DNA of 64,000 nucleotides, taken from NCBI GenBank assembly GCA_034521975.1, contig JAXHLR010000010.1, positions 124,001-188,000 of the forward strand. Reading direction: 5' to 3'. Of this stretch, positions 12,907 to 20,335 are shown in pieces (position 1 is the first letter of the stretch; every line of letters starts with the position of its first letter). The notes beneath the pieces are model-generated. The model did no database searches, was not told the DNA's origin, and saw nothing but the letters and a program-made list of their open reading frames with translations. The position numbers and the translations under genes are program-made. This DNA comes from Acidimicrobiales bacterium. Lineage in GTDB: Bacteria; Actinomycetota; Acidimicrobiia; Acidimicrobiales; SKKL01.

Positions 12907-13605
12907 TCAGGTGGTGACCGCGACGACGTCGCGGAACGCGAAGCCGTCGCGCTCGACGACCTCGCCGGTCTCGACGGGGATCGGCCGGGAGAAGCCGGGG
13001 CCGTCCCACACGAAGGTGTGGAACTCACCGTGCTCGCCGCAGGGGTCGGTGCCATCGGGCAGGTCGGCGAGGAGCTCGTGGTCGAAGGGGCGGCCCAGCA
13101 GCTCGATGGGCATCTGCGAGCGATCGACGCAGGTGAGCACGGCGCGCAGGCCGGACTCGATCATCTCGTGGGCGAGCTGGTCGGTGGGGCGTCCCCAGAT
13201 GGGGAAGTGGGGCTCGATCGGCGTCGGTGCCAGGTTGGCTTCGCGGTACCGGCGGACGTCTTCGAGGAAGAGGTCGCCGAACACCATCGTCCCGACGCCG
13301 TCGGCGGCCGCAACGGCCATCGCTTCGGCCATCTTCTCCTCGTAGACGCCGTTGGGGCAGGGCGATGGCAGATCCACCTGGTGCAGCGGCAGGCCGAGCC
13401 GGTCGGCCTGGGCCTCGAGCAGGGTGCGGCGCACTCCGTGCATCGCGACCCGCTCGGCGTCGCCGTTGAGGGTGGTCAGCAGCCCGACCACCGGGACCCC
13501 CGCAGCCCTGGCGGTGTGGAGCGCGAAGGCGGAGTCCTTGCCCGAGCTCCAGCTCATCCAGGCACGTGTCTCGGTGTCGGGTCGGTGCTCGTCGTGTTCG
13601 GCCAT
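12907..13605 (-). CDS. Dph6-related ATP-pyrophosphatase (adenine nucleotide alpha hydrolase-like)
   Basis: The 232-aa protein has an N-terminal PP-loop, MSWSSGKDSAFALH, the ATP-binding signature of the alpha-hydrolase fold. It also has conserved MHGVRRTLLEAQADRLGLPL, a GDLFLEDVRRYRE segment and GEHGEFHTFVWDGPGF. These are features of the diphthine-ammonia ligase-like family (COG2102). In archaea and eukaryotes members amidate diphthine; bacterial members have no diphthamide target, so the substrate is unknown. ATG 13605 is the first start that precedes the conserved region. It diverges from the endonuclease V-like gene. Confidence 0.85.
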   Translation of the reverse strand: MAEHDEHRPDTETRAWMSWSSGKDSAFALHTARAAGVPVVGLLTTLNGDAERVAMHGVRRTLLEAQADRLGLPLHQVDLPSPCPNGVYEEKMAEAMAVAAADGVGTMVFGDLFLEDVRRYREANLAPTPIEPHFPIWGRPTDQLAHEMIESGLRAVLTCVDRSQMPIELLGRPFDHELLADLPDGTDPCGEHGEFHTFVWDGPGFSRPIPVETGEVVERDGFAFRDVVAVTT

Positions 13606-13693
13606 CGACACAGCATGACCGCGCCGCCGAGCCACCGCCGAGCCGCCGGCGACGTCACCGCTCGTCGCGCTGATCGACCGCCAGACTGGTCGC

Positions 13694-14497
13694 GTGGCAG
13701 CACTCGAGGAACCGTGGCCCGGCTCCGACGCCGAGCTGGTCGCCCTCCAGGGGCGTTTGGTCGAACGGTCACGGCGGGTGGATCGATGGCGGCCGCCGAC
13801 CGGTCGTGCCATGCGGGTCGGCGGGTGCTTCGTGGCCTTTGCCCGGGGCGAGGCAGGTCCCGGACATCCCGGTGACCGGGCGTGGGCGGCGGCGGTGGTG
13901 TTGGAGGTTCCCGCCGAACCCGGACCCGGGCCGCGCCGCGACCCCGACCGGCAGCTGCGGGGGATCCCCGTCGGTGGCGCGCCCCGGCAGGCCCGCGATG
14001 TCGAGGCCCAGCACGCGGTGGCGGGCACGGTCCCCGCGTCCTACGCACCAGGGCTGCTGGCCCGCCGTGAGGGGCCGATCCTCGAGGCCGCGGTGCGGCA
14101 TCTGCCCCGGCTCCCCGAGGTGCTGCTGGTCGACGCCACCGGGCTCGACCACCCTCGTCGTGCCGGCTTGGCGCTGCACCTCGGTTCGGTGCTGGAGGTG
14201 CCCACGGTCGGAGTCACCCACCGGGGGTTGGTCGACCGGTCCGACCCGCCCGATCTCGCCGAGCGGGGTGCGTGGATGCCGGTGGAGCAGGACGGTGTGG
14301 CCGTCGGGGCGTGGCTGTGCGTGCGGTCGGGGGTACGGCCGGTGCTGGTCCACGCGGCATGGCGGACCGGGGTCGAGGACGCGGTCGAAGTGGTGCTGCG
14401 GGCCTCGGTCGAGGATGCCCGGACGCCGGTGCCGCTGCAGGAGGCCCGACGGGTCGCCCGCGAGGCGCGCCACCTGGCCACCGCCGATGGTCGATGA
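13694..14497 (+). CDS. endonuclease V-like protein with an altered active site
   Basis: The 267-aa protein aligns with deoxyinosine 3' endonuclease V over its core: YAPGLLARREGP (Glu126), LLVDATGLDHPRRAGLALHLG (Asp147) and VPTVGVTHRGL. Family enzymes cleave DNA or RNA one base 3' of inosine with a metal bound by two Asp and one Glu. Here the first metal Asp, expected in a GxDV(A/S)F strand, is replaced: the strand reads VGGCFVAF with Phe46 at that place. The Lys of the usual GVAKK is His176. Glu126 and Asp147 remain. It starts with GTG. Function may have shifted to binding or another chemistry. Confidence 0.78.
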   Translation: MAALEEPWPGSDAELVALQGRLVERSRRVDRWRPPTGRAMRVGGCFVAFARGEAGPGHPGDRAWAAAVVLEVPAEPGPGPRRDPDRQLRGIPVGGAPRQARDVEAQHAVAGTVPASYAPGLLARREGPILEAAVRHLPRLPEVLLVDATGLDHPRRAGLALHLGSVLEVPTVGVTHRGLVDRSDPPDLAERGAWMPVEQDGVAVGAWLCVRSGVRPVLVHAAWRTGVEDAVEVVLRASVEDARTPVPLQEARRVAREARHLATADGR

Positions 14498-18170: not shown

Positions 18171-18584
18171 TCAGGAGCGGACCGACTTCACTGCCTCGCG
18201 GACGGTCTCGGCGACCGTGGAGGCGGGTGCGCCGGGGCCGAGCACCGCGGCCACGCCGGCGTGGTGCAGGGTTGGGATGTCTTGGTCGGGGACGATGCCG
18301 CCGACGATGACGGGGATGTCGTGGCCTGCTGCGCGGAGGGTGTCGACCATTCGGGGGGCGAGGGTGAGGTGGCTGGCGTTGTGCAGGGAGAGCCCGACCG
18401 CGTCGGCGTCTTCTTGGAGGGCGGCGGAGGCGACCATGTCGGTGGTCTGGCGCAGTCCGAGGTAGATGACCTCGAACCCGGCGTCGCGGAGGATTCGTGC
18501 CACGACCCGCAGTCCCCGGTCGTGACCGTCGAGGCCGAGCTTGGCCAAGACGATGCGGATCTGGGGTTCGTGGTCGGTGCCCAT
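18171..18584 (-). CDS. icmB: B12-binding small subunit of an acyl-CoA mutase (IcmB-like)
   Basis: The 137-aa protein is a stand-alone cobalamin-binding domain with the DxHxxG motif as LGLDGHDRG; His21 should be the lower cobalt ligand. SLH and GGIVPDQDI follow, the latter also conserved. Methylmalonyl-CoA mutases usually carry this domain fused; a separate subunit of 136-137 aa is the layout of isobutyryl-CoA mutase (IcmB). Its ATG overlaps the large-subunit stop by one base (TGATG), so the two subunits are co-translated. Confidence 0.88.
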   Translation of the reverse strand: MGTDHEPQIRIVLAKLGLDGHDRGLRVVARILRDAGFEVIYLGLRQTTDMVASAALQEDADAVGLSLHNASHLTLAPRMVDTLRAAGHDIPVIVGGIVPDQDIPTLHHAGVAAVLGPGAPASTVAETVREAVKSVRS

Positions 18585-20260
18585 CAGATGGTGGTGGTCT
18601 CGGTGTAGGTGCCGAACACCGACTCGAGTGCGGTGACGATCTCTTCTTCGGTGGCGTAGACCGCGACGGCGTCGATGAAGCTGGGCATGAGGTTGACGGT
18701 GGGGTCGGCGGCGTCGGTGCGGACCTGTTCGAGACAGGCGCGCACCGCGTCGTCGTCGCGGTCGGCTTTGACCGCGGCGAGGCGTTTGAGCTGGATCGTC
18801 TCCACCGAGGGGTCGATGCGCAGGATCTGCTGGTCGCGGTCGTCGTTGCCGTCGGTGAAGTCGTTGATCCCGACGATGATCCGCTCGCCGGAGTTGACCT
18901 CGCGTTCGAAGCGGTACGACGCGTCGGCGATCTCGCCGGTGAAGTACCCGTTGTCGATGCCCTCGTAGACGCCTTCGAGGATCGAGCCGTGACCGAGCTG
19001 GTCGAGGTGGGCGAAGACCGCTTCGGCCTGTCGTTCCATCTCGTCGGTCATCCACTCGACGAACGGGGCGCCGCCGAGCGGGTCGGCGACGTTGGTGACC
19101 CCGGTCTCGTGGGCCACGATCTGTTGGGTTCGCAGCGCGATGCGGGCCGCGTCCTCGGTGGGTAGCGACAACGCTTCGTCGTAGCTGTCGGTGTGCAGCG
19201 ACTGGGTGCCCCCGAGGGCGGCGGACAGCGCCTGGGTCGCCACCCGGGCGATGTTGTTGCGGGGTTGTTGGGCAGTGAGCGACACCCCGGCGGTCTGGGT
19301 GTGGAACCGCAACATGTGGGACCTGGGATCGGTGGCGCCGTAGCGGTCGCGCAACCACCGGGCCCAGATCCGGCGGGCGGCACGGAACTTGCCGATCTCT
19401 TCGAAGAAGTCAGAGTGGGCGTTGAAGAAGAAGCTCAGCCGCGGAGCGAAGTCGTCGACGTCGAGACCGGCAGCGATCGCCGCTTCGACGTAGGCGAACC
19501 CGTTGGCCAGGGTGAACGCCAGTTCCTGGGCGGCGGTCGATCCCGCTTCGCGGATGTGGTAGCCCGACACCGACACCGGGTGCCAGCGCGGCATCTCCGC
19601 CGCGGTGAACCTCATCAGGTCGGTGACCAGCCGCACCGAGGGGCGCGGCGGGAAGATGTACTCCTTCTGGGCTTGGTACTCCTTGAAGATGTCGTTTTGG
19701 AGGGTGCCCGACAGCGCCGCCCGGTCGACACCGTTCTTCTCGGCCACGGCGATGTAGGCGGCCATGACGATGGGTGCCGGACCGTTGATCGTCATCGACG
19801 TCGAGACCCCCGACAGGTCGATCCCCGAGAAGAGATCTTCCATGTCGGCCATGGTGTCCACCGCGACCCCGGCACGACCGACCTCACCGAGAGCCCACTC
19901 GCTGTCGGAATCACGCCCCATCAGCGTCGGCATGTCGAACGCGGTCGATAGCCCCGTGCCGCCGGCCTCGAGAAGCTGTTTGAACCGCTCGTTGGTGTCC
20001 TCGGCGGTGCCGAATCCGGCGAACATCCGCATGGTCCAGAGCCGGGACCGGTACATCGAGGCGTGGATGCCGCGGGTGTAGGGGAACTGCCCCGGATAGG
20101 GACCGTCGCCATAGACCGGCTCGACCGGGACCCCCGACCGCGTGGTGAACGAGACGCCATCGCGCAGTCGCGCCGCCCGGTACTGCTCCTCCCAGAGCGC
20201 GCGGTCGGGATCGTCGCTTCGGTCGGTAGCGGTGGGGTCCGGTCCGGAATCGGTCGTCAT
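18584..20260 (-). CDS. icmA: acyl-CoA mutase large subunit, isobutyryl-CoA mutase signature (IcmA-like)
   Basis: The 558-aa TIM-barrel protein of the methylmalonyl-CoA mutase family lacks the C-terminal B12 domain, which is encoded next door. Two residues set substrate choice in this family: Tyr89/Arg207 in P. shermanii methylmalonyl-CoA mutase and Phe80/Gln198 in Streptomyces IcmA. Here the places read TMRMFAGFG (Phe80) and YQAQKEYIF (Gln198), the IcmA pair even at the same numbers. The residue matching Asp117 of 2-hydroxyisobutyryl-CoA mutase is Ala. It should interconvert isobutyryl- and n-butyryl-CoA. ATG 20260 is chosen over ATG 20317 for its AGGGA site. No G-protein chaperone gene is nearby. 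Confidence 0.85.
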
Positions 20261-20335
20261 GGTCGTCCCTGCATGCTGCGTGGCGGGCGGGCTGGGAGGC
20301 ACTGCGTGAGCCTCCAACCACTGTGGCCCATTCTC

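Follow-up and report, generated by a model that had tools for sequence, protein, structure and literature searches.

The closest described systems to the protein considered here are endonuclease V (EndoV) and other proteins of the RNase H fold. The characteristic activity of EndoV is cleavage of the second phosphodiester bond 3′ of inosine, and that of Endo_dU is metal-independent cleavage 3′ of deoxyuridine. In the excerpted account of Thermotoga maritima (Tma) EndoV in PMC4650699, D43, E89 (Q89 in that crystal) and D110 are found with Mg2+, K139 and H214 lock the 5′ phosphate, the base pocket consists of G83, L85, G111, G113, G121 and L142, and a wedge is formed by P79-Y80-I81-P82. Escherichia coli EndoV combined with Ca2+ has been used as an 'anti-inosine antibody' (excerpt of PMC11273454). 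Endo_dU (DUF99) is described as being without the conserved first Asp, as having a positive residue at the fourth catalytic position and as cutting in EDTA (excerpt of PMC11585767), and incomplete active sites are also described for the Prp8 RNase H-like domain and other RNase H-fold proteins (excerpts of PMC3985635 and PMC11585767).

Here we describe an EndoV-like gene of an Acidimicrobiales bacterium, found in a 64,000-nucleotide stretch of DNA (hereafter, the window), and the clade to which its product belongs, in which the first metal-binding Asp of EndoV is replaced throughout by an aromatic residue.

Results

The gene lies at 13694–14497 on the forward strand and was recognized as an open reading frame of 267 amino acids with a Pfam match; it begins at a putative GTG start with no obvious ribosome-binding site just upstream. 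The protein matches Endonuclease_5 (PF04493) at 107.8 bits (cut-off 23.4; E = 7 × 10−31), and this match, together with homologues at 46–55% best-segment identity, supports the coding frame. Its scores fall below the NCBIfam deoxyribonuclease V equivalog cut-offs (102.5 against 230 bits; 81 against 300 bits), and its closest solved structures by sequence are the EndoVs of S. avermitilis, E. coli and T. maritima. Alignment reveals a subclade-specific insertion at approximately 13910–14008 (forward strand), between strands 2 and 3; part of it is predicted with low confidence (pLDDT about 50–70 in the AlphaFold2 model). This insertion, limited to part of the clade, was aligned in the window protein, L003 and L004, which have the pattern LRG....PR.A.D in common; for L088 and L093 it was assigned on the basis of length.

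As modelled by AlphaFold2 from six sequences (pLDDT 82.1, pTM 0.85), the window protein has the EndoV fold over its whole chain. All of the top 35 Foldseek rows were EndoV, and VIA-align superposed 223 residues on 6ozf_B, Tma EndoV(D110N) with inosine DNA (Z = 26.1, rmsd 2.5); Z ranged from 21.5 to 26.1 across EndoV entries and was 13.4 for 2QH9, with Argonaute and other RNase H-fold proteins ranked under EndoV in the structure lists. The predicted layout is also that of EndoV: F46 sits on the first strand (40–49) and E126 in a helix (122–135), D147 ends the strand at 143–147, H176 directly follows the strand at 171–175, and R252 is in the last helix (246–264).

Residue conservation was assessed in an alignment of 34 clade members and 44 ordinary EndoVs, grouped by clade-profile score (plus the contig-end fragment L047) without use of the residues themselves; the ordinary set comprised the best-scoring of the ordinary matches listed and is biased towards clade-like ones. 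Identical proteins were collapsed, L084 and L005 were N-terminally trimmed, and three items were left out before counting (the split second copy of G089, a 112-amino-acid fragment from G862 and the second fragment of G965). The initial annotation, aligned by eye, had read the first strand as VGGCFVAF with Phe46 in place of the essential Asp, Glu126 and Asp147 retained, and His176 (in GVTH) in place of the catalytic Lys, and all of these residues are present in the open reading frame. Phe46 (13829–13831, forward strand, as are all features below) was placed at Tma EndoV residue 43 by a 15-member clade HMM compared with solved structures (in PDB chains, Phe column at chain position 39, first V of VAGVDLSF), which bears out the by-eye alignment. 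Position 46 is F in 27, Y in 5 and W in 2 of the 34 clade members, versus D in all 43 ordinary EndoVs with a letter there (1 of the 44 has a gap), so that the Asp, common to the ordinary homologues, is kept by 0 of the 34 clade members. Within three residues of position 46, neither Asp nor Glu occurs in any of the 34. Alignment error is ruled out by the HMM placement and the lack of a nearby acid, and a lone mutation or sequencing error by the clade-wide occurrence of the change.

The other catalytic positions have changed to different extents. Glu126 (14069–14071; Tma E89) and Asp147 (14132–14134; Tma D110) are both present in the window protein, the metal triad of which is thus incomplete at D43. 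Position 126 is E in 29 of the 34 clade members (A, F, I, D or V in the other five) versus 44 of the 44 ordinary EndoVs, and position 147 is D in 17 and N in 17 clade members versus D in all 44 ordinary EndoVs. D110N and E89Q variants bound to inosine DNA appear in the titles of PDB entries; the natural Asn of 17 of the 34 clade members is the same substitution as D110N. At His176-Arg177 (14219–14224), which stand for the catalytic Lys (Tma K139) and the next residue, the clade has H (23), D (6), R (2), T (1) or Q (1) among 33 members at the first position, versus K in 44 of 44 ordinary EndoVs, and R at the second (33 of 33 versus 0 of 44). A replacement absent from the initial annotation is Arg252 (14447–14449), at the place of Tma H214 and E. 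coli D210: the last matched Arg column of the clade HMM falls on Tma H214, and the position is R in 31 of 31 clade members versus D in 29 and H in 15 of the 44 ordinary EndoVs. Both K139 and H/D214 are accordingly missing from the clade (Lys 0/33; H/D 0/31). At these five positions, each of six plasmid-encoded EndoVs (from an archaeon, E. coli, Xanthomonas, Methylobacterium, Ruminococcus and Paenibacillus) shows the ordinary residues: D, E, D and K, followed by D or H.

Other positions are fixed in the clade, some in common with EndoV and some of its own. The wedge Tyr is kept (Tyr117, 14042–14044, Tma Y80; 34 of 34 clade members and 44 of 44 ordinary EndoVs), as are the pocket residues G150 (G113; 34/34), G158 (G121; 34/34) and L179 (L142; 33/33), with G120 (G83; 32/34), L122 (L85; 32/34) and L159 (I122 as L; 33/34) nearly fixed. 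Two pocket positions have changed: A148 replaces Gly (G111) in all 34 clade members (Ala also occurs in 3 of the 44 ordinary EndoVs), and T175 stands at A138, otherwise Ala or Gly, in 32 of 33. The wedge prolines and wedge Phe are not kept. Clade-specific residues include Asp152 (14147–14149; 34/34 clade, 0/44 ordinary), beside His153 (Tma H116), itself kept in 32 of 34 clade members, and the segment His220 to Trp223 (14351–14362; Tma S182 and H185), with H220 in 28 of 31 and W223 in 32 of 32 clade members and each in 0 of 44 ordinary EndoVs. Mean net charge is +5.7 in the clade versus −1.3 in ordinary EndoVs.

The branch proposed in the initial annotation is recovered as a clade: the 34 members, all without the Asp, form one side of a 100/100 branch that separates them from the 44 ordinary EndoVs, in a tree with bootstrap not fully settled (0.980), ten ordinary rows of odd composition and a midpoint root used for drawing. 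The split was kept when six outside EndoVs (E. coli, archaeal, Firmicute and other proteobacterial) were added and the ordinary set was reduced to 18 of the 44 (SH-aLRT 100, short search). On this enlarged tree, in which many inner forks are weak, the minimum numbers of changes were at least five for D147/N147, at least four for E126 versus other residues and at least six for position 176. Together, the tree and the residue counts indicate that the loss at position 46 is ancestral to the clade and that drift of the other ligands followed, as would be expected of a metal site without a function. These sequence observations are firm; in our preferred reading, the clade is an ancient divergent EndoV lineage in actinobacteria.

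A single-protein pattern scan of genome_contigs (84,980 species) found five loci, all in Actinobacteria. In a profile search of 396 genomes of the phylum, whole clade-like matches (at least 184.8 bits) were set apart by a clear gap from the rest (at most 123.8 bits), split or truncated clade genes scoring below whole matches. Within the class that contains the window genome, a clade match at E ≤ 1 × 10−40 was present in 19 of 395 genomes, two of these matches being broken or partial (G862 and G965); in the class of G107, 4 of 394 genomes matched at 281–336 bits, with the other 26 genomes listed at 160 bits or less, and three smaller groups had the clade in 5 of 27, 2 of 3 and 2 of 16 genomes. 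No relative was found in a scan of viral_contigs. A phage or plasmid origin was rejected, the plasmid and phage collections having yielded only partial matches at <60% identity, none covering 80% of the query (those annotated were EndoV/nfi). Searches of open-access literature listed no description of this clade.

PF04493 was matched by 15 of 15 clade members tested. At E ≤ 10 the window protein matched PF04493 alone among Pfam families, with no match to PF01949 (Endo_dU), and the genome that encodes it has no PF01949 gene. Weak PF01949 matches occurred in 9 of 15 clade members (best E = 8 × 10−4) and 6 of 15 ordinary EndoVs (best E = 3.5 × 10−3), and closer kinship of the clade to Endo_dU was ruled out by this control scan, in which ordinary EndoVs match PF01949 comparably.

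Among the 14 closest of 561 clade pairs, dN/dS was 0.17–0.45 (0.18–0.36 in the six closest), and values of about 0.2 in close pairs indicate that the protein is maintained by purifying selection. Some copies are nonetheless damaged: that of G427 is interrupted by one in-frame TGA, G965 and G862 carry interrupted or partial copies, as does G089 in its second copy, and G1089, G1029 and G189 gave weak matches that are broken. Broken or split clade genes were also noted in draft genomes at L101 (G089:C33), L156, L159, L097 and L015. Some of these breaks may be assembly faults and others decay, and the several broken copies suggest that some hosts may not need the gene.

Where the clade gene occurs, ordinary EndoV was not found: when 33 genomes carrying a clade copy were searched with PF04493, each yielded the clade gene or fragments of it and nothing else, with ordinary EndoV in 0 of 33. 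Across the 395 genomes of the class, the 24 with a PF04493 match comprised 19 with the clade gene, 3 with broken clade copies, one with ordinary EndoV (G1014) and one with a short divergent form (G1086). This exclusion is suggestive only, because it is confounded with lineage. The short EndoV-like form, of about 180 amino acids with an altered HPR..GLA loop, was seen at L157 (G1086) and L008 (G045); its metal residues (DVGY, GVAK and RRAD) are seemingly retained, the opposite pattern to the clade.

The EndoV-like gene stands alone in the window, with flanking genes on the opposite strand (a Diphthami_syn_2 domain protein on one side; a UPF0014 membrane protein and an ABC ATPase on the other). 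The Diphthami_syn_2 (PF01902) open reading frame, listed at 12907–14028 on the reverse strand, adjoins the gene; its real start is probably near 13.6 kb, because the listed frame overruns the start of the EndoV-like gene. A conserved operon was rejected, as rough clustering of open reading frames gave no neighbour set in more than 6 of 36 stretches once frames overlapping the gene itself were set aside, and sets found in 4–5 stretches were mostly within one family (f175); these neighbourhoods are only roughly read, the rough gene caller having missed the EndoV-like gene in 22 of the 36 stretches, including the window. In L107 (G065) and L108 (G182), the clade gene is preceded on its own strand by a gene with a similar start in both loci, putatively PAC2-like, at a distance of 7 bases in L108 and several hundred in L107 by rough gene calls. 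Elsewhere in the window, at 18171–20317 (reverse strand), the catalytic and B12-binding domains of methylmalonyl-CoA mutase are in separate, adjacent open reading frames.

Discussion

With D43, K139 and H/D214 gone and D110 and E89 drifting, the alignment strongly implies that the usual two-metal chemistry has been lost in the clade. The protein is probably a binder of inosine or nucleic acid that would hold damaged or edited nucleic acid and not cut it in the usual way, a reading for which we count the fixation of the pocket and wedge Tyr while the metal positions vary within the clade. The sequences show replacement of the first metal ligand by an aromatic residue, and of the phosphate-holding Lys and H/D214 (the latter by an invariant Arg), followed by drift of the remaining acidic ligands (D to N; E to A, F, I, V or D); the wedge Tyr and most base-pocket positions stayed fixed, and the gene is under purifying selection. 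The protein may then flip or hold a deaminated base (hypoxanthine or, as one pocket Gly is now always Ala, a related base) in DNA or RNA, with arginines supplying the charge balance once given by metal ions, and could act as a reader, protector or recruiter and not as a nuclease. We regard it as an even call that metal-dependent cleavage was given up once, in the common ancestor, and the protein, as predicted, kept for binding.

Binding by E. coli EndoV informs this reading in two directions. Its binding of inosine RNA is described as supported by Ca2+ and reduced by EDTA (excerpt of PMC11273454), so that loss of the metal site could also cost binding, and it is described as binding single-stranded DNA independently of metal (excerpt of PMC4650699); metal loss therefore neither proves nor excludes binding. 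Counting against a binder are the pocket changes A148 and T175, the loss of the wedge prolines and Phe, the presence of Glu126 and Asp147 in the window protein, and the several broken copies; in addition, with ordinary EndoV missing from the 33 genomes, the clade protein could replace the enzyme and not read its substrate. Taken more broadly, that this is a natural family of readers of inosine or another deaminated base, derived from EndoV and found across several actinobacterial classes, with metals replaced by an invariant Arg, or else a metal-independent nuclease that has replaced EndoV, is suggested by the sequences with a likelihood that we place a little short of even.

The second of these possibilities taken by itself, a metal-independent nuclease like Endo_dU that would cut beside the deaminated base via Arg252 together with His220, Asp152/His153 or Arg177, seems to us rather unlikely, yet the Endo_dU precedent makes it a serious alternative, since that enzyme shows the same kind of change and cleaves in EDTA (excerpt of PMC11585767). 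The new invariant polar positions (D152, R177, W223 and R252, with near-invariant H220) would suit such chemistry, and the missing ordinary EndoV in 33 of 33 clade genomes fits replacement; however, variation at position 176 (H/D/R/T/Q) and the switching of 147 between D and N leave few candidate catalytic side chains, and the clade is no nearer to Endo_dU than ordinary EndoVs are. Less likely again is reuse of the fold for another ligand or partner unrelated to inosine, which would account for the clade-specific pocket (A148 and T175) and wedge changes and for the lack of conserved neighbours linking the gene to repair, but not readily for a wedge Tyr, G113, G121 and L142 that are fully fixed. 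We consider it improbable that the metal site was rebuilt with another acid (for example, Asp61 or Asp152 for D43), leaving an ordinary nuclease after all: D152 is invariant (34/34) and 32 of 34 clade members have an acid at column 61 (D 27, E 5), but so do 18 of the 34 ordinary EndoVs with a letter there, no acid lies within three residues of position 46, the losses extend to the Lys and H/D214, and half of the clade has Asn at D110. Decay of a functionless gene, to which the broken or partial copies (in G427, G862, G965, G089 (second copy), G1089, G1029 and G189) and the patchy distribution (19 of 395 genomes in the class) might point, is very improbable given that most members are full-length, dN/dS is about 0.2 in close pairs and many residues are invariant across deep divergence.

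No bacterial protein is known to us that has been shown to read inosine and leave it uncut. If the clade is indeed a natural reader, one may ask what inosine would signal in actinobacteria, and the protein could serve as a cleavage-free inosine probe, as E. coli EndoV with Ca2+ does (excerpt of PMC11273454). If, instead, the protein cuts without metal, the EndoV fold would have lost its metal chemistry along a further route in addition to that of Endo_dU. In either case, the Pfam-based annotation 'endonuclease V' may be wrong for this clade.

Comparison with known systems

Among proteins with altered active sites, the Prp8 RNase H-like domain has the same fold and an incomplete tetrad, but belongs to another family with another cellular role. 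Endo_dU (PF01949; A. fulgidus 2QH9) resembles the window protein in its EndoV-like RNase H fold, in the absence of the first Asp and in a positive residue at the fourth catalytic position, a feature matched by Arg252; unlike Endo_dU, the window protein keeps the EndoV N-terminal helix and the HPR motif. Laboratory-trapped EndoVs (Tma D110N and E89Q; E. coli EndoV with Ca2+) likewise keep the base pocket and do not cleave, but they are engineered or metal-swapped, whereas the clade occurs naturally, has more residues missing and is predicted to bind. Closest of all is EndoV itself (PF04493; 2W35, 3GOC and 4XPU), with which the clade has in common the fold, the wedge Tyr, most pocket residues, the C-terminal helix and the HPR..GLA..H.G motif, and from which it differs in the change of D43 to F, Y or W, the loss of K139, the replacement of H/D214 by Arg, a D110 that is often Asn, an E89 that is sometimes lost, and a new set of invariant (D152, R177, W223 and R252) and near-invariant (H220) residues.
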